Positions 15,611 to 44,299 of a stretch of 64,000 nt of DNA are shown here, piece after piece. The DNA comes from an uncultured Cohaesibacter sp. Its GTDB lineage: Bacteria; Pseudomonadota; Alphaproteobacteria; Rhizobiales; Cohaesibacteraceae. A model generated the notes under the pieces. The model searched no databases, had not been told where the DNA came from, and saw only the letters and a program-made list of their open reading frames with translations. The position numbers were made by a program, and so were the translations under genes. Within the stretch, counting starts at the first letter, position 1. Each line of letters opens with the position of its first letter. The DNA lies in assembly GCF_963676485.1 (NCBI RefSeq), contig NZ_OY781114.1, positions 4,604,501-4,668,500 of the forward strand, given 5' to 3'.

Positions 15611-17079
15611 GCCCTTCACTTATCTGGATCGGCATCGCCATCTATATCCTTATCGCCTGTATCGTCGCCTATCTGTCCCGCAGGAGCAACGCACCTGATA
15701 TGGCAGATTATTTTGTTGGCGGGCGCAGTTTTGGTGGCGTGATTTCGGCCCTGAGCTATTCAGCAACCACCTATTCGGCCTTTATGATGGTTGGCCTCGC
15801 AGGTCTTACCTATAAAGGTGGCGTTGGGGCGCTCGGCTTTGAAATCGTCTATTTTGCGGGCGTTTCTCTCGTTGCCATATTTGGCCCCCGCTTTTGGCTT
15901 GTTGGAAAGAAATACGGTTTTGTGACACCGTCAGAAATGCTCGGCGCGCGATATGGCTCACGCTGGGTGGCCATCGTGGTGGCATTGGCGAGTTGTTTGT
16001 TCCTTGTGCCCTACTCCGCCGTTCAGCTGGCTGGCATCGGCTATCTGCTTTCGGGTATGAGTGATGGCGCCATTTCCTTTCCGGTCGGGCTTGTCATCGC
16101 AACCTTGCTTGCGATCATCCTGTCATATATCGCTGGTATACGATCGGTCATGTGGACCGACAGCCTTCAGGCACTTCTGATGATCTCCGCTTCTGTCCTT
16201 GTTACCATCGTGGTGATCGATCAGTTGGGCGGATTCTTTGGCATGTTTGCGAGCATTGCCGAAACGAAACCGGAAATGCTGCAGGTCCCCGGATCAGGTC
16301 TCTTCAGTTTCAAGACCATGCTGGGGCTGACCATCCCGTGGTTCTTCTTTTCCATTTCCAATCCGCAAGTCAGCCAGCGCCTGTTCATGCCCAAATCGCT
16401 CGGCGCACTACGCCGCATGCTTCTTCTCTTTCTCTGTTTCGGCCTCATTTACACGATTGTAGCAGTCCTTTGGGGCTTTGCTGCGTTTGAAGCCTTTCCG
16501 GATCTGGAGAATGCCGATCTCGCCAGTGCGGCACTGCTTGGCGCAGACTTCCTGCCCCCGGCTCTCTCAATCATCGTGATGATTGGCATCCTCGCAGCCG
16601 CCATCTCAACCATAGACTCCATCCTGTTGACCCTTTCATCCATGTTGGCCCGCGACGTATATGGCGGCTTCAGTAATGGTGCCTCTGATGCTGCTCAGCT
16701 AAAAATCGGACGCATCGTGATACCGGTGATATCGTTGATCGCGCTCTCCTTTGCCTCTCTCAAGCTAAGCCTTATCTCCATTTTGTCAGTTGCAGCCTCA
16801 TCCGGCCTTGTTGTTATGGTGCCCGCCATCGTTGGCGCTTTCTTCTGGAAGAGAGGGACAGCAGCAGGAGCACTGAGCAGCATCCTCTTGGGAGGTCTGT
16901 TCGTGATCGTCATGTATATGACGGGCAACAATCTGTTTGGTCTCAATGCTGGCATACTCGGGTTGCCAGTCGCGACTGTCATTTTCGTATTGGTCAGCCT
17001 AGTTACCACCCGCAAGGGCGACTTAACCGATGTTTTCGTGGATGAAACCAGCGAGCAACTTATTCATCTTACGAAATAG
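15607..17079 (+). CDS. Sodium:solute symporter (SSS family)
   Basis: The 490-residue transporter has the 12-13 helix LeuT-type fold of the SSS family. Recognisable parts are DYFVGGRSFGG and ALSYSATTYSAFMMVG at the N-terminus, and the Na+-site helix region SIVMIGILAAAISTIDSILL, with the conserved Ser/Thr ligands. SSS proteins import sugars, proline, pantothenate, carboxylates or urea with Na+. The pairing with DUF3311 points to the subgroup often annotated as carboxylate/solute symporters, but no substrate can be assigned. Its 3' end overlaps the convergent apbE gene by 11 bp. Confidence 0.92.
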   Translation: MSPSLIWIGIAIYILIACIVAYLSRRSNAPDMADYFVGGRSFGGVISALSYSATTYSAFMMVGLAGLTYKGGVGALGFEIVYFAGVSLVAIFGPRFWLVGKKYGFVTPSEMLGARYGSRWVAIVVALASCLFLVPYSAVQLAGIGYLLSGMSDGAISFPVGLVIATLLAIILSYIAGIRSVMWTDSLQALLMISASVLVTIVVIDQLGGFFGMFASIAETKPEMLQVPGSGLFSFKTMLGLTIPWFFFSISNPQVSQRLFMPKSLGALRRMLLLFLCFGLIYTIVAVLWGFAAFEAFPDLENADLASAALLGADFLPPALSIIVMIGILAAAISTIDSILLTLSSMLARDVYGGFSNGASDAAQLKIGRIVIPVISLIALSFASLKLSLISILSVAASSGLVVMVPAIVGAFFWKRGTAAGALSSILLGGLFVIVMYMTGNNLFGLNAGILGLPVATVIFVLVSLVTTRKGDLTDVFVDETSEQLIHLTK

Positions 17080-18061
17080 ATCCGAAAACAGGCCCTGCAG
17101 AAATCTCCCGTACTTTGTTCCCGTCTCTGACGAGAAACAAAGCGTTGATCCCTTTCGCACGGGCCACATGCAATCCGGCTTCCGCGCCCATCACCATGAG
17201 CGCGGTTGCCCAAGCATCCGCTGTCATACAGCTGTCTGCAACAACGCTGACTGATGCAACGTCATTCTGTAGAGGACCACCGCTTCGCGGATCCATTGTA
17301 TGGCTAAAGGTTCGGTCGCCGACTTTCACCCAGTGGCGATAATCTCCACTGGTGGCTATGGCAGCATCGCGCAAGAGCACCATTCCAAGCGCTTCACGTA
17401 AGCTGTGATCGGGCTTTTCCAGCGCCACCGACCAAGGCATATCGCTTCCTTTTGAACCTACGGCCCGCATTTCACCATCAATGCCGACCAGGCCGCTCTT
17501 GATGCCATAAACCTTGAGCGTATCGGCCATAACATCAACACCATAGCCTTTGGCAATACCACAAAGATCGAGCGTCACCTCTTTTTTCTTTCGCACCGCA
17601 TTCCGCGCAGGATCAAGCTCCAGTCGCTCATAGGTTGGCACTCGTCTTTGGCCAAGTTGCGCACGGATTGCCTCAGCATCTGGTTCGCGAGATGAGGCAC
17701 CAAAGCCCCATGCGTCAACCATATCGCCTACGGCAGGATCGAACAGGCCACTTGAGGCCCGATTGATCGCGATGGCTTCCTTCAGAACCCTGAAGAGATC
17801 TTCGGGCACTTCGATCCAGTATCCCACCTTGGCTCTGTTCAGTCGCATGAGATCTGCGTCCGCTTTCCACGTAGACATTTGCCTGTCCACACGATCCACC
17901 GCTTCAAACAAGGCCTGCTCAAGCCCTTCGGGCGGTTGAGCGTCATCGCTCATGATGATGGCGCTGTAGCGCGTGCCCATGGTCTTGCCGTTAAAGACAT
18001 GGCGATATTGCCCTTCCGGCATCGAAATATCCTCCGGTCGATCAAAAGACATCTTCAACAT
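17069..18061 (-). CDS. apbE: FAD:protein FMN transferase (ApbE family), apparently without export signal
   Basis: ApbE enzymes transfer FMN from FAD onto a Thr or Ser of a partner protein. The 330-residue sequence has the family core: MGTRYSAIIM, RVDRQMSTWKADADLMRLNR, SGLFDPAVGDMVDAWGFG, LDLCGIAKGYGVD, GIDGEMRAVG, ATSGDYRHW and FSHTMDPRSGGP. Most bacterial ApbE proteins are exported lipoproteins. Here no signal peptide or lipobox is visible: residues 1-30 are hydrophilic. The start at 18061 has an AAGGAAGGG site and overlaps the upstream fusion gene by 20 bp. The likely target is the DUF2271 protein encoded two genes upstream. Confidence 0.92.
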   Translation of the reverse strand: MLKMSFDRPEDISMPEGQYRHVFNGKTMGTRYSAIIMSDDAQPPEGLEQALFEAVDRVDRQMSTWKADADLMRLNRAKVGYWIEVPEDLFRVLKEAIAINRASSGLFDPAVGDMVDAWGFGASSREPDAEAIRAQLGQRRVPTYERLELDPARNAVRKKKEVTLDLCGIAKGYGVDVMADTLKVYGIKSGLVGIDGEMRAVGSKGSDMPWSVALEKPDHSLREALGMVLLRDAAIATSGDYRHWVKVGDRTFSHTMDPRSGGPLQNDVASVSVVADSCMTADAWATALMVMGAEAGLHVARAKGINALFLVRDGNKVREISAGPVFGSIS

Positions 18062-20255
18062 ACCGCCCTTCCTTTCTGAGATCTGAGAGGTCTACACCGT
18101 TGGACTTGAGAATGTCAGTGAGGGTCGCCTCAATACCCTTAGCCATGCCTCGCCCCCCACAAACCATGATCTGAGCCCCATCACGAACCAGCATTGCGAG
18201 TTCTGCAGCATCCTGACGCAAGCGGTCCTGCACATAGAGACGCTGATGGGTCCGTGAAAATGCAGCTTTCACTGAGTGCAAAAAACCGACCTTGTGCCAT
18301 GCGCCCAATTCCTTGCGATAGAGGAAATCCGATTGAGGATGACGTGCCCCGAAATAGAGCCGCATCGGGCGTTTGCGGCGATTGTTTCGGATGAAACCGA
18401 CAAGCGGAGCAATCCCTGCCCCGGCTCCGATAAGGATAACCGGCGTTTTGGAAGCCTCGAGGCGAAATCCGGGATTGGCCTGAAATGCAGCTTCGATCTG
18501 GTCCCCGGGCTTGAGGCCATGGAGCTGGCCTGAGCAAAGCCCACCGGGAACATTGCGCACACAAATCTCGACAAAGCCGTTCTTACGTCCCGACGCGAGT
18601 GAATAGTACCTTGGCACACAATCACCGTCCGGAGTGATGCTAAGGAGGTCTCCGGGCTCAAAAGCTGGTAACTTTTTCCTCAGCAGGCGGGACACCCACG
18701 AATTCCCACCATTTGCGACCTCAAAACGAAACACAGAGGTCGGCGCCTGAACCTCCCGTCCATAATCACTGCGCGAAACAAGTCTCAAGGTATGGCGTTT
18801 TACGTCAACTTGAACCGGCTCCAGCTCCAAATTGGTTCCGAGATAATGAGCCAAAGCCTCACCCCAACGTGCAAATTCTTGCACTGACTGACGGTTCACG
18901 GTCGCCATCGGCATGAACTGCCGCCAACCGTTCAGCACAAAGCGGTTGCTGACCTCAGAGGCAAACTGACAGAATTGAGAAAACTGTTTGTCACCAAAGC
19001 CAAGAATAGCAACCGGCAAGGCCTTATCTCCTTCATAGGCATCAAGTTTGTCGAGGAAACAGTTGGCAGAGGCTGGCGCTTGCCCATCTCCATAGGTGGA
19101 AGTCAAAATGTAGAGGTGCTGCGCCTTTGGATAGTCCTTGGCCATGTCATTCATCTTGGCGGTGTGAACGCGCCTGTCGGCCTTGGTCAAACCATCATGC
19201 AGACTGCGTGCAAAGCTCCAGGTGCTATTGCTTTCACTCCCCACAAGGATAATCGTATCTGCATCATTGGGTTTGGCATTGTTGGCGATCTTGAGCTTGC
19301 TCTGCTTTTTCTTCCACCAGATAAAGGCACCCGTCACGCCCATGACAGGCACACCAAGCGAGGCAAACCCAAGCAACAGAGCCAGAGGAGCAAGCCCGTC
19401 GCCGGTATGCAGCATATAGATGAATTCATAAATCTGCTTGGCGCTGCTGTTGGGCGAATAAGTCAATAATGCACCGGTTGCCTGATCCACATACCCGGAG
19501 CCTTTGGCTGTCGTCAGCGTAAACGCGTCGCTGGCGTCTCCATCATAGGGGAAAGTCAGCTCACGCAATTGGGTTACCGGCACATCACGCAATCCTTCAA
19601 GGGAAACGATCGGCGCAGGTGTTCCGCCATTGACCTTGGGAAAGGCCATCTGCGAACCGGAGCCATCGGGAGCAAAACCAAATGTTGCTGCCGTCATATA
19701 GAGACCGGTTACGGCACTAAGGCTCAGGCCAATAATGGCCAGCCGTGCCACTTCGAGATGCAGCCGCTGAGACATACTGCCGCGGATGGGACCAAAAAGC
19801 AGCTTCCAGCCCCCCATGCGACGCTTAAGCATGATCAGGCCCGTACCACAGATAAACAGCATGACTGCGGCCCCCAGCCCCGCAGTCATGCGCCCGCCAT
19901 CCCCCAGAAACAGGGACCGATGCAAATCAGTCAGCCAGATGCGGGTTTGTGATGGCTTATAGGACCCAAGGCTTGCACCAGACGCCGGATCGACCAACTC
20001 TGAACCGGACTTTCCGTTTTCATAATAGTAGGCGACAATCTGCCCGGACGCGTGGCGAACGATCTGGGAGGTTCCCGGATGGTCCTGTTTTACCGTGTCC
20101 GCCAATTCAGCGACGGACAATGTTGTTGCGGCACGAGTGGTTTGGCTGGCCTCTTCCAATATGGGGAAAATGGAAAGGGCCGCCCCGCTGATGGCAATGA
20201 CCAGCACAAGGGGCATAAGGAAAAGGCCGGTAACTTTATGAATAAATGAATTCAT
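18042..20255 (-). CDS. PepSY-TM / flavodoxin / ferredoxin-NADP reductase-like fusion, transmembrane electron carrier
   Basis: This 737-residue fusion begins with a PepSY-TM membrane half. Helices lie near 8-30, 124-142, 168-190 and 288-313, with His6, His112, His166 and His283 at helix ends as candidate haem ligands. A cytosolic reductase follows: flavodoxin domain 333-475 (FMN loop TSTYGDGQAP), FAD domain with RYYSLAS (549-555), and NAD(P)H-binding GAGAGIAPLVGF (610-621). The cytosolic part resembles sulfite-reductase flavoprotein and P450-reductase modules. It should move electrons from NAD(P)H through flavins and haem to the periplasm. Neighbours apbE and DUF2271 suggest a flavinylated acceptor; ferric-siderophore reduction is the main alternative. 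Confidence 0.85.
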   Translation of the reverse strand: MNSFIHKVTGLFLMPLVLVIAISGAALSIFPILEEASQTTRAATTLSVAELADTVKQDHPGTSQIVRHASGQIVAYYYENGKSGSELVDPASGASLGSYKPSQTRIWLTDLHRSLFLGDGGRMTAGLGAAVMLFICGTGLIMLKRRMGGWKLLFGPIRGSMSQRLHLEVARLAIIGLSLSAVTGLYMTAATFGFAPDGSGSQMAFPKVNGGTPAPIVSLEGLRDVPVTQLRELTFPYDGDASDAFTLTTAKGSGYVDQATGALLTYSPNSSAKQIYEFIYMLHTGDGLAPLALLLGFASLGVPVMGVTGAFIWWKKKQSKLKIANNAKPNDADTIILVGSESNSTWSFARSLHDGLTKADRRVHTAKMNDMAKDYPKAQHLYILTSTYGDGQAPASANCFLDKLDAYEGDKALPVAILGFGDKQFSQFCQFASEVSNRFVLNGWRQFMPMATVNRQSVQEFARWGEALAHYLGTNLELEPVQVDVKRHTLRLVSRSDYGREVQAPTSVFRFEVANGGNSWVSRLLRKKLPAFEPGDLLSITPDGDCVPRYYSLASGRKNGFVEICVRNVPGGLCSGQLHGLKPGDQIEAAFQANPGFRLEASKTPVILIGAGAGIAPLVGFIRNNRRKRPMRLYFGARHPQSDFLYRKELGAWHKVGFLHSVKAAFSRTHQRLYVQDRLRQDAAELAMLVRDGAQIMVCGGRGMAKGIEATLTDILKSNGVDLSDLRKEGRYVEDVF

Positions 20256-20307
20256 GGCAGGGTATCTCTTTTGCAGGCATGGTGATCAATCTGGATATGA
20301 AACAGGC

Positions 20308-20778
20308 CTACATATCGAAGCTGAAGGTTTGAATGAAGCGGCGGCCAGCAGTTGCCTTGCCGGTGTTGCTGCTTTTGAGAGGCACAACAACCTCTGACGG
20401 TGCATCGCCCATATGTTCGACGGCTGTGTCTATATGCAGTTCATAGCCAGCATCAAACAGGGCATCGGCCAGATCCAGCGTCACATTCAATGTGCGACCG
20501 CTGCCAACGCTCGCCCCCGTGATGCCATCAACTTCAGCGGGATTGCCGCCTGTTGCGCGAGACCAATCACGTAAGTCCCGGTAATATTTGGATCGGCCAC
20601 CCGACATCCACAAAGACCCCTGATAGGCACCAGAAGAGTCGGTGACATACATCACCATATAGGCCTCCGGTCCACCATAGTTGCTCATGGTGGCCGAGAG
20701 GGTAACGGGCTTGGCCTGAGCTGCGGCAGGCAAAATAAATGCACTGGCGAGCGCTGCGGAAGCGAGATATTTATTCAT
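20308..20778 (-). CDS. DUF2271 secreted protein with ApbE-type flavinylation motif
   Basis: The 156-residue protein has a clear Sec signal (MNKYLASAALASAFILPAAA, cleavage after AQA) and a beta-rich DUF2271 body. Residues 84-90 read DGITGAS, matching the D-x-x-[S/T]-G-A-[T/S] acceptor motif of RnfG, NqrC and UrdA, in which the last Thr or Ser carries FMN. Ser90 would be the acceptor here. Encoded 52 bp upstream of the PepSY/flavodoxin fusion and in one run with apbE, it is the natural periplasmic partner. Covalent flavinylation is inference from the motif and context. Confidence 0.78.
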   Translation of the reverse strand: MNKYLASAALASAFILPAAAQAKPVTLSATMSNYGGPEAYMVMYVTDSSGAYQGSLWMSGGRSKYYRDLRDWSRATGGNPAEVDGITGASVGSGRTLNVTLDLADALFDAGYELHIDTAVEHMGDAPSEVVVPLKSSNTGKATAGRRFIQTFSFDM

Positions 20779-20878
20779 GACTGGTTTCCTTATTTTCTAG
20801 TGAGCAGCCCGCCCGATTTTTTGTCTATGGGCGGTTGCGGCTTGGTTGGCTCCAGGTGCGAGAAGCTTGATGGCGGAT

Positions 20879-21199
20879 CTAGTTCATCGTGACTTTTGGA
20901 GACGAACCCTTGCTAATGAGCTTGTTGTGGTTGATAGGGCCAGTTGGATTTTGTGGAGCTGCCTGCCCACGGCTTGCTTGATGATCGTCGTCGTCATCAT
21001 CATCCCAACCGATAGGCACCTTCCAGCCAAACAGATTCAAATGGCGGCCCCCATCATGATCCCTGTCCCGATATCCATGCTCACGTTCCCGGCTCGAATA
21101 GCCATGTCCATCATGATCACCATAACCATCGGCATATGTCGCGCCGGCTGCGAGGGTAAGGCCACTGATTATCAAGGCGCCTGCAATAAGTTTTTTCAT
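20879..21199 (-). CDS. Small secreted Asp/His-rich protein
   Basis: The 106-residue protein has a Sec signal (MKKLIAGALIISGLTLAAGA, cleavage near YADG) and a low-complexity mature part rich in Asp, His, Gly, Arg and Tyr (GDHDGHGYSSREREHGYRDR), with a run of seven Asp at 66-72 followed by His. It is not a family I can name. Composition suggests metal or cation binding in the periplasm. It is the first gene of the leftward flavin-electron-transfer group, 172 bp from the divergent two-component system, so it is probably a target of that system. Confidence 0.7.
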   Translation of the reverse strand: MKKLIAGALIISGLTLAAGATYADGYGDHDGHGYSSREREHGYRDRDHDGGRHLNLFGWKVPIGWDDDDDDDHQASRGQAAPQNPTGPINHNKLISKGSSPKVTMN

Positions 21200-21371
21200 C
21201 GGTCTGATCTCCGGTTCGTTGATTTGATAGCAGCACTATTGCCGACCAGACTGAAGGAGACCTGACCGATAATTTCTTTTTGCTTCAGCTTCCTGTAAGG
21301 TTGCATAGCGACACTGCTGAAGGCGCTAGAAGCCATATGGTGCGGAATATTCAAGAGAAGGCGTGAAAGAT
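21200..21371. promoter_or_regulatory. Divergent promoter region of the redox cluster and two-component system
   Basis: This 172-bp spacer separates the leftward redox genes from the rightward regulator genes and must contain both promoters. An A/T-rich core with TTTCTTTTTGCTTCAGCTTC lies at about 21270-21290. I could not define a convincing OmpR-type direct repeat by eye. Confidence 0.5.
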
Positions 21372-22031
21372 ATGCGGGTCTTGTTGGTCGAGGATGACAC
21401 GGTGTTGGGATCCGCAGTGCGCGATCAGATCGCAGCCGAAGGACATAGCGTGGACTGGGTGCAGAGGCTGGATGCCGCAAGTGACTATATTCACGCGGCG
21501 CCCTATGAACTGATCCTTCTGGATCTCATGCTCCCCGACGGTCTCGGCATTCCATTTTTGAAAAAATTGCGCGGCTCTGGCGATGTCACGCCAGTGATCA
21601 TTCTAACTGCACTGGATCAGATCTCTGACAGGATTGACGGATTGAATGCCGGTGCCGATGATTATCTGGTCAAACCCTTTGACCTTCAGGAATTGACCGC
21701 CCGCCTGAAAGCCGTAGCCAGACGCTACAGTGGCAACCCAAATCCGATCGTCAGGCTTGGTACGCTGGAAGTTGATATCGCCGCTCGCTCCATCATGCGT
21801 GATGGCAAACAGGTAACCCTTACCGCTCGTGAATGGGCGCTGTTTGGCGCTTTTCTGCAGCATCCGGGCAACCTGCTCTCCAAGGGCCAACTGGAAGAAA
21901 CGCTCTATGCGTTTGATGCCGAGATCGAAAGCAATACCATTGAGGTTCACATCAGTCGCATGCGCAAAAAGCTCGGCTCTGGCGTTATAGAAACCGTGCG
22001 CGGCATGGGCTACCGGCTGGAGCAGCCATGA
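21372..22031 (+). CDS. OmpR/PhoB-family response regulator
   Basis: The 219-residue regulator has a receiver domain (acidic pocket VEDD, phospho-acceptor Asp51 in ILLDLMLPDG, Thr79, Lys101 in YLVKPFD) and a C-terminal winged helix (TAREWALFGAFLQHPGNLLS, NTIEVHISRMRKKLG, ETVRGMGYRL). ATG 21372 is preferred over a GTG at 21363, which is too close to the AGAAGG site. Its stop overlaps the kinase start (ATGA). The family resemblance is to QseB/PmrA/TctD regulators, which often answer to metals or tricarboxylates. Confidence 0.93.
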   Translation: MRVLLVEDDTVLGSAVRDQIAAEGHSVDWVQRLDAASDYIHAAPYELILLDLMLPDGLGIPFLKKLRGSGDVTPVIILTALDQISDRIDGLNAGADDYLVKPFDLQELTARLKAVARRYSGNPNPIVRLGTLEVDIAARSIMRDGKQVTLTAREWALFGAFLQHPGNLLSKGQLEETLYAFDAEIESNTIEVHISRMRKKLGSGVIETVRGMGYRLEQP

Positions 22032-23566
22032 AATTGAAGTCCTTCGTAAAAAACAGTCTGCAATTGCGGCTTTCTCTCGGTCTGGCCCTTGGGGTTGGCC
22101 TCTTATGGACGGCAGCGATGAGCGTTAGCGGCGTGATTGTCAAGCATGAGCTGGATGGTGCCTTCGATCAAGCGCTTGCAGAAGCCGTCGAGCGTCTGCT
22201 GCCGCCTGTCATTCATGACATTGTTGAAGGGCGAGACAAGCGCGATGAAATGAACGACCTTACCATTGATGGCTTGCGACTGGGGCGCATTGGCAAATCG
22301 TGGCGCGAAGCGAATGGCCTGACCCGCGGAGACATAAAACGGAGTCACCATAAAAGCAAAGATGCTGAGGATCATGACGACGAAGAAGACGATGATGAGA
22401 ATAGAGCTGAACGAGAGCATGGCGAAAAACCTGTCTTTACAGCACCAGAAAGCCAGTATCTAACCTATATCGTAAGAGACGCTCAGGGCCGAATTCTGCT
22501 TCAGTCCAAAAATGCCGACGCAGACATCTTTCCGCCGATAGAGAAGTTGGGTTTCATGACACTTGATGACTATCGCATTTTCACCGGCTCAACGCTGGAT
22601 GGCAATGTGATTATCTCTGTCGCAGACCCCATGGCTAGGCGTCAACGGGCTGCCCATGATACCCTTGAGGCTCTCGCCATGCCGCTCTTTGTTCTGGTTC
22701 CTCTCAGTATGCTGGGGGGCTGGCTATTGGTGCGTATTTCAATGCGGTCCATACGCGGTTTTCGAACGGAAATAGAGGCCCGCGGCTCTGGTGACCTGTC
22801 TTCCATCAATGCGGAAAATCTACCATCAGAAATCGAGCCGGTCGCGGATTCGGTCAACAATCTGCTTGACCGCATGCGGCGCACACTGGAAGCAGAGCGC
22901 AGTTTTACGGCCAACAGCGCGCACGAATTACGAACGCCGGTTGCTGCAGCTCTGGCACAGACGCAAAGACTGATTTCGGAATCAGAAGAGGCCCCCATAA
23001 AACAGCGTGCACGTCAGATAGAAACGGCACTCAAGGCCCTCTCAAGGCTCACAGAAAAGCTGATGCAGCTGGCCCGCGCAGAGGGAGGCGCGATGCTTTC
23101 AGAACAGCCTCGAGATATTCTGCCCATCATCAATCTGGTTCTGGATGAATTCCGGGACGAAAGCGACAGATTGCAGGTTGCTATGCCTGCCCAAGCAGTG
23201 CCTCTGCTGATTGACGCCAATGTGTTCGCCATTTTGCTGCGCAATCTTATAGAGAATGCTCTCAAGCATGCTCCGCCCCATAGTGCAGTAGAGGTGGAGT
23301 TGCATCAGGATGGCAAACTTGTCGTGCGCAATGACTGCGACGCGATTCCATCCGAAACACTCTCCCGCCTCCTCCGCCCATTCGAGCGCGGCGCAACGAG
23401 AGCCAAGGGCAGCGGCGTGGGGTTGGCCATCGTCGCAGCGATCGTCAAGGGCAGCGGCGCAACGCTAACCCTCAATTCCCCACTTGCAGGTAAGACAAGA
23501 GGCTTTGAAGCCATCGTATCTTTCACAACCGGCCAACAGAAGCAGGATCACCCTATACGCTCCTGA
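22028..23566 (+). CDS. Sensor histidine kinase with acidic periplasmic loop
   Basis: The 512-residue kinase has TM1 at about 14-36, a periplasmic sensor to about residue 215, TM2 at 217-236, HAMP-like region, HisKA with SAHELRTP (His299), and the ATPase domain with the N-box NLIENALKHA (Asn410) and GSGVGLAIV. The sensor contains an Asp/Glu/His-rich stretch at 112-132 (DAEDHDDEEDDDEN, then EREHGE), a plausible cation-binding site, echoing the Asp/His-rich secreted protein encoded divergently. The loop between N- and G-boxes reads NDCDAIP rather than the usual DNGPGIP, so the ATP lid is somewhat degenerate. Confidence 0.93.
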   Translation: MKLKSFVKNSLQLRLSLGLALGVGLLWTAAMSVSGVIVKHELDGAFDQALAEAVERLLPPVIHDIVEGRDKRDEMNDLTIDGLRLGRIGKSWREANGLTRGDIKRSHHKSKDAEDHDDEEDDDENRAEREHGEKPVFTAPESQYLTYIVRDAQGRILLQSKNADADIFPPIEKLGFMTLDDYRIFTGSTLDGNVIISVADPMARRQRAAHDTLEALAMPLFVLVPLSMLGGWLLVRISMRSIRGFRTEIEARGSGDLSSINAENLPSEIEPVADSVNNLLDRMRRTLEAERSFTANSAHELRTPVAAALAQTQRLISESEEAPIKQRARQIETALKALSRLTEKLMQLARAEGGAMLSEQPRDILPIINLVLDEFRDESDRLQVAMPAQAVPLLIDANVFAILLRNLIENALKHAPPHSAVEVELHQDGKLVVRNDCDAIPSETLSRLLRPFERGATRAKGSGVGLAIVAAIVKGSGATLTLNSPLAGKTRGFEAIVSFTTGQQKQDHPIRS

Positions 23567-25374: not shown

Positions 25375-25464
25375 TGGCGGAGAGGAAGGGATTCGAACCC
25401 TCGAGACAGTTACCCGCCTACGCCCTTAGCAGGGGCGCGCCTTCAGCCACTCGGCCACCTCTCC
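25375..25464 (-). tRNA. tRNA-Ser(GCU)
   Basis: The 90-nt gene has acceptor stem GGAGAGG/CCTCTCC, D-arm TGGCCGAGTGGCTGAAGGC, anticodon loop CTGCTAA (anticodon GCT), a long variable arm typical of class II serine tRNAs, T-arm GGTTCGAATCC, discriminator G and encoded CCA. Confidence 0.96.

Positions 25465-44222: not shown

Positions 44223-44299
<77 letters not shown>

Follow-up and report, generated by a model that had tools for sequence, protein, structure and literature searches.

The window analysed here, a 64,000-nucleotide (nt) stretch of an uncultured Cohaesibacter sp. (positions 4,604,501 to 4,668,500 of contig NZ_OY781114.1), contains a six-gene cluster at 17069..23566. The cluster is a distinct sub-type of PepSY flavinylation system, in which a fusion of PepSY with a diflavin reductase for reduced nicotinamide adenine dinucleotide phosphate (NADPH) lies beside its own two-component pair. 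Reading of the open reading frames (ORFs) placed all six genes where the initial annotation had put them, and their domains were matched by Pfam. Four genes are on the reverse strand: apbE, encoding a flavin transferase without an export signal (17069..18061; PF02424, 1.3e-82); the gene of the PepSY_TM/flavodoxin/FAD/NAD(P)H fusion, a predicted transmembrane NADPH-driven haem reductase (18042..20255); the gene of a DUF2271 protein with a signal peptide, the predicted flavinylated carrier (20308..20778; PF10029, 6.3e-33); and the gene of a secreted Asp/His-rich peptide of 106 residues with a signal peptide (20879..21199), an Asp run (20981-21004), and a C-terminal tail (20882-20950). The forward strand encodes an OmpR-family response regulator (21363..22031; PF00072, PF00486) and a sensor histidine kinase (22028..23566; HATPase PF02518, HisKA PF00512).

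DUF2271 scores above the cut-off in 41 of 297 genomes of the order. Among 40 DUF2271 loci from 39 Hyphomicrobiales genomes, 34 combine it with the fusion, ApbE, and both two-component genes, and 23 of these full loci also have the tail peptide (E < 1e-3). The gene order is therefore not due to chance, and the linkage of DUF2271, apbE, and the fusion, on which the initial annotation had made its proposal depend, is borne out. Within Cohaesibacter, the presence of DUF2271 is patchy (6 of 11 genomes). The named loci, which are the best 80 of 562 matches to the fusion, all contain DUF2271; the pair is present in 69, an adjacent ApbE in 57, and the tail peptide in 37, with some of the contigs ending early. 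The closest match to the fusion among these 80 is from Cohaesibacter marisflavi, with 80% identity. Hosts of the sub-type are alpha-, beta-, and gammaproteobacteria. In FastTree phylogenies, the DUF2271 proteins of the sub-type separate from those of classical clusters with a support of 0.86 (3 of 149 misplaced), and the ApbE proteins with a support of 0.88 (1 of 117 misplaced). The 116 loci classed as type B, to which several counts below refer, are not all independent: L053 and L073 represent a single locus, and there are several near-identical pairs. The module is conserved, is often plasmid-borne, and has its own genetic switch.

The initial annotation had not recognised the combination as described. 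For the core this does not hold, because ApbE, DUF2271, and PepSY, including PepSY with a NAD-binding domain, were reported together in eLife in 2021 (PMC8238504). That study lists 3220 PepSY-like flavinylation clusters, 2833 of them with DUF2271, and counts a NAD-binding domain in 1077 PepSY genes. Its coexpression test showed flavinylation of one DUF2271 protein, and a role in iron reduction was proposed. The arrangement used as the criterion for such systems, a PepSY_TM protein clustered with ApbE or a flavinylation substrate, is found in the window, and the two also have in common the [S/T]GA[S/T] motif of DUF2271, the NAD-binding domain, and a proposed outward electron transfer with metal reduction. 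The window cluster differs in its diflavin fusion, its own pair with a conserved operator, the acidic or PepSY_2 secreted proteins, and the separate DUF2271 and ApbE clades. A literature search conducted outside most subscription journals and the supplementary tables of the eLife study, which may list such clusters, found no published account of the acidic peptide, the leaderless ApbE, or a two-component pair linked to such a cluster. A PepSY/DUF2271/DUF4198 locus of Caulobacter is reported to be under Fur and to matter in ethylenediaminetetraacetic acid (EDTA).

The fusion is a single chain of 737 residues with PepSY_TM, Flavodoxin_1, FAD_binding_6, and NAD_binding_1 domains. The histidines that the initial annotation had placed at helix ends, H6, H112, H166, and H283, are conserved without exception across all 37 aligned fusions, and their membrane sides were assigned from hydropathy and model helices. 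The structure matches listed were filled by the diflavin half, and the membrane half was therefore compared by sequence with FoxB (PDB 7abw). The match has an E of 1.7e-8 for the whole sequence, drawn from three weak stretches. Three of the four invariant histidines, H6, H112, and H283, align to histidines of the homologous membrane domain of 7abw, whereas H166 is outside the aligned stretches. FoxB differs in being a 382-residue chain without the diflavin half, and the sources consulted describe no linked DUF2271. Residues 331-737 of the fusion align with P450 reductase and CysJ, so that in the window a diflavin module of this type is fused to a membrane haem domain. The domains and haem ligands back the route proposed earlier, from NAD(P)H through haem to the periplasm. 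The fusion would take electrons from NADPH through flavin adenine dinucleotide (FAD) and then flavin mononucleotide (FMN), and would pass them across two haems to the secreted DUF2271 protein, the predicted bearer of covalent FMN. The sequence DPASGAS in the PepSY loop was considered as a second flavinylation site and rejected; relatives do not retain the motif, and it is therefore an ordinary PepSY turn. In a separate variant, locus L071:5570-8014 encodes PepSY_TM, flavodoxin, and ApbE in one chain beside a DUF2271 gene, with ApbE replacing the reductase half.

The DGITGAS motif noted previously in the DUF2271 protein is located at residues 84-90 (20509-20529), and its TGAS agrees with the [S/T]GA[S/T] pattern of flavinylation sites. 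The strict seven-residue motif is retained in 112 of 118 DUF2271 proteins, and four of the other six have [S/T]GAS. According to a crude hydropathy measure, all 118 have a hydrophobic N-terminal segment. A search by sequence for relatives of DUF2271 with solved structures gave a best E of 0.43, which was treated as none. In the window's own genome, locus L002 (C1:2855915-2856034) shows weak similarity to the central part of DUF2271 within a 224-residue frame, as do several relatives.

The exported component expected of a PepSY-like flavinylation system is here the DUF2271 protein; the ApbE of the window lacks the N-terminal export signal that marks exported (lipoprotein or Tat) ApbE proteins. 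The initial annotation did not remark on this absence, which bears on the compartment of flavinylation. In the window, apbE overlaps the fusion gene by 20 nt. The same 20-nt overlap is found in 62 of 95 copies of the sub-type, and one of 17 or 11 nt in a further 16; annotated starts on two plasmids agree with the leaderless start. The N-terminal hydrophobicity has a median of 0.01 in 100 cluster copies and 2.2 in 22 other copies, of which 21 are distinct, as L159 and L200 are the same gene (p 1e-12; the genomes are related, and p-values here and below are a guide only). The leader calls are based on Kyte-Doolittle hydropathy and reading by eye, not on SignalP, with N-termini placed by profile position. 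The outliers are L044 (broken ORF) and L071 (fused) among the cluster copies, and L185 and L187, which seem leaderless, among the others. The other ApbE of the window genome is a lipoprotein with an export signal, and other copies in cluster-bearing genomes carry lipoprotein or Tat leaders. The absence of a leader is wider than the fusion sub-type: no evident leader is present in 18 of 21 ApbE proteins from classical clusters, and no remark on it was found in the available text of the eLife study.

The distribution of ApbE copies follows that of their potential substrates. The count covers 37 of the 41 genomes with DUF2271 above the cut-off, leaving out G088, G151, G176, and G199. The cluster ApbE is the only one in 16 of the 37 (14 of this sub-type and two classical; one genome is 83% and one 93% complete), and none of these 16 encodes an FMN_bind protein. 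A leadered ApbE is located 1.7-7.6 kb from an FMN_bind gene in 17 of 17 genomes with FMN_bind, whereas a leadered ApbE is present in one of 20 genomes without it (Fisher p 1e-9). The single case is G182, with a Tat-type ApbE; for G004, G027, and G155, the score of no leadered ApbE relies on matches that were fragmentary or fused rather than on N-termini. In four Cohaesibacter genomes there is a second FMN_bind gene, which is distant from every ApbE.

Because an export signal is lacking from the cognate ApbE, flavinylation of DUF2271 by this enzyme probably takes place in the cytosol and precedes export of the carrier by Sec. FMN loading before export would mean that no FAD need cross the membrane. 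A 2025 review of ApbE (PMC12052999) calls the route of FAD to ApbE obscure, and if the proposal is true, a leaderless ApbE whose substrate is exported would sidestep this delivery problem. Coexpression in E. coli of DUF2271 and ApbE, neither with a signal peptide, yielded flavinylated DUF2271 (PMC8238504). According to the review, a seven-residue tag suffices for labelling by ApbE, and a folded substrate may therefore not be required. Genomes with a single apbE make cytosolic loading directly testable.

The operator CTGA[AC]-N6-CTGA[AC] is located no more than 300 nt upstream of the regulator gene in 90 of 98 distinct loci. In controls, it was found in 0 of 98 coding stretches and in 0.2 after shuffling, and other spacings occurred in 0-4 loci. 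The operator is upstream of the peptide or DUF2271 gene in 68 of 113 cases, and in none of 30 classical clusters. The window carries one exact box, CTGAAGGAGACCTGAC (21251..21266, forward strand), and one variant box, CTTACAGGAAGCTGAA (21284..21299, reverse strand), which faces the peptide-DUF2271 operon and departs from the consensus in its first half-site. Both fall in blocks that six Cohaesibacter sequences have largely in common. The conserved operator supports the earlier claim of two-component control, in which the kinase and regulator would act through CTGAM-N6-CTGAM boxes on two operons, their own and the peptide-DUF2271-fusion-apbE operon. The iron-responsive pairs BqsRS and PmrAB (PMC4682146, PMC12666569) have the same tandem pentamer organization with a 6-bp gap, but a different half-site (TTAAG-N6-TTAAG for BqsR). 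Genome-wide enrichment of the box is not clear, with 43 matches compared to 34 for the reversed control; a wide regulon was rejected on these numbers, and the switch may be local. The operator provides a handle on what turns such systems on.

The best NCBIfam scores of the pair are to PmrA and QseC, both below the cut-offs. The initial annotation had proposed that the kinase senses cations by its acidic and His-rich loop (22340-22429). This is not supported, because the loop is restricted to Cohaesibacter and the ExxE motif is present in just 25 of 104 kinases. The loop was found in seven of 104 aligned kinases, all from Cohaesibacter and two of them from the same locus, and has 78-84 residues compared to a median of 25; it is missing from G256, which is also a Cohaesibacter. 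It was rejected as a conserved sensor, being an insertion of this genus. The window kinase has EAVE, and the count of 25 comprises E..E/ExxE at the membrane-near helix, which is another difference from BqsRS and PmrAB.

The Asp/His-rich peptide of the window has no Pfam or NCBIfam match, and is a member of a conserved secreted family that the initial annotation overlooked. Members have a signal peptide, an Asp/Glu/His stretch, and a tail resembling NGLF..G..P.V.VN. The window tail is common to the relatives, in many of which it comes after a PepSY_2 domain. In the cluster neighbourhoods scanned, 60 of 60 tail matches are no more than 4 kb from a fusion. PepSY_2 or a tail protein is present in 104 of the 116 type-B loci, and PepSY_2 in 98 of them. 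The latter arrangement is the same as in DbfQRS (PMC12714742, Nat Commun 2025), where a small secreted PepSY-type protein accompanies the pair; the window differs in that its peptide has no PepSY domain and its pair is associated with an operon for electron transfer. DbfQ binds its own kinase, so that tuning of the kinase may also be a role of the acidic or PepSY_2 proteins secreted here; such tuning, or the holding of metal, is their probable function.

We assign a probability of roughly 55% to the complete interpretation from sequence, that of a two-component-controlled sub-type of PepSY flavinylation system with the proposed electron route, control, and cytosolic loading. Several observations weigh against it. 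The operator is missing or altered in eight of the 98 loci and present in only four of eight type-B loci of the phylum sample, and PepSY_2 and the tail peptide are both absent from 12 of the 116 type-B loci. As judged from the ORFs, the VIT, ATPase, reductase, and b561 genes found beside many relatives do not adjoin the window cluster. Cytosolic loading presupposes the passage of an FMN-bearing precursor through SecYEG. Three of the 21 ApbE proteins of classical clusters are leadered, two of them as single ApbE-DUF2271 chains. In gammaproteobacteria without an adjacent apbE, 15 of 15 genomes tested have a leadered ApbE elsewhere (15 of the 23 named loci of this kind; 20 of 22 ApbE matches read, 19 leadered), which indicates that loading of the carrier is probably possible outside as well. 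Additional leaderless ApbE proteins outside the cluster in two genomes (L185 and L187) make a cytosolic substrate besides DUF2271 possible.

The gammaproteobacterial genomes count in favour of standard periplasmic flavinylation, in which an export route not yet recognised would carry ApbE to the periplasm for loading of DUF2271 there. Characterised ApbE proteins are mostly secreted (PMC12052999), and the cognate ApbE of the eLife test had a signal peptide (PMC8238504). However, the ApbE of the sub-type has no leader while other ApbE proteins of the same genomes do, and in L071 it is fused behind the flavodoxin domain and would lie inside, which leaves periplasmic loading unlikely. It is quite improbable that the leaderless ApbE serves another cytosolic protein and that DUF2271 is not its target. 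The ApbE of Klebsiella pneumoniae likewise has no signal peptide, and its known target, a fumarate reductase, is cytosolic (PMC12052999), whereas the apparent target here is exported. Against such a substrate speak the retained motif of DUF2271, the overlapping or adjoining genes, the absence of FMN_bind proteins from genomes with a sole ApbE, and the lack of [ST]GA[ST] in the cytosolic half of the window fusion; a substrate with no recognised motif would escape this argument. The cluster may be a mobile, two-component-controlled electron-export island whose cytosolic ApbE loads DUF2271 ahead of Sec export, and bacterial ApbE may form two classes, leaderless for DUF2271 and secreted for FMN_bind; this wider picture is tentative, and its odds fall somewhat short of even.

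The 116 type-B loci include genes for VIT in 29, heavy-metal P-type ATPase in 28, ferric-reductase-like protein in 25, and cytochrome b561 in 18, and 15 of the 28 ATPase genes are no more than 10 nt from apbE. Four pairs of loci from different genera (L083/L084, L089/L090, L112/L116, and L104/L119) share 9.6-13.9 kb at 98.4-99.9% identity, which indicates recent horizontal transfer; one pair spans Vibrio and Pseudomonas, and two have ends inside both loci. At E <= 1e-60, 99 plasmid records encode a relative of the fusion; 70 are predicted to be conjugative, and 38 of them come from a single genus. Stretches of three plasmids were read. A Thioclava plasmid contains the whole set with the ATPase and VIT, and a Cupriavidus plasmid the set with a metal ATPase nearby. 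A Citrobacter plasmid carries the pair, a ferric-reductase-like protein, PepSY proteins, DUF2271, and VIT, and has no apbE. The module moves horizontally, and its occurrence on plasmids next to genes for metal transport suggests that it can be selected for, perhaps when cells face metal stress.

This setting fits a transferable metal-handling island, with iron as the first guess and copper as the rival. Metal reduction is the likely job of the module: beyond the inner membrane, the DUF2271 carrier would pass its electrons to a metal, of which iron is the likeliest. The PepSY_TM protein CrpH has been linked to copper, and heavy-metal P-type ATPases adjoin some clusters, as would be in line with reduction of Cu(II) by the fusion and DUF2271 for export or oxidase assembly. 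Nevertheless, this is rather doubtful, as the VIT and ferric-reductase-like neighbours indicate iron or manganese, and the tested ATPase scores 468 bits with the cadmium model compared to 337 bits with the copper model, below the copper cut-off. A response to envelope or redox stress, with the electrons repairing oxidised periplasmic proteins instead of reducing metals, would agree with the lack of conservation of the metal-sensing ExxE and with DbfQRS-like pairs, which together with small PepSY proteins answer outer-membrane damage (PMC12714742). It appears very unlikely, since no repair enzyme recurs among the neighbourhood clusters listed (12 families, at least 12 loci each), whereas metal transport genes do recur.

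No RNA element was found near the cluster; at the Rfam gathering threshold, the 64-kb window contains only two tRNAs, tRNA-Ser (gct) at 25375-25464 and tRNA-Pro (ggg) at 44223-44299. In locus L044:8437-10622, the fusion gene is split across several frames and ApbE is short, which may reflect decay or an assembly error. In loci L230:3945-5438 and L232:3954-5432, ApbE and DUF2271 form single chains with an N-terminal leader and thus represent the opposite, exported solution.

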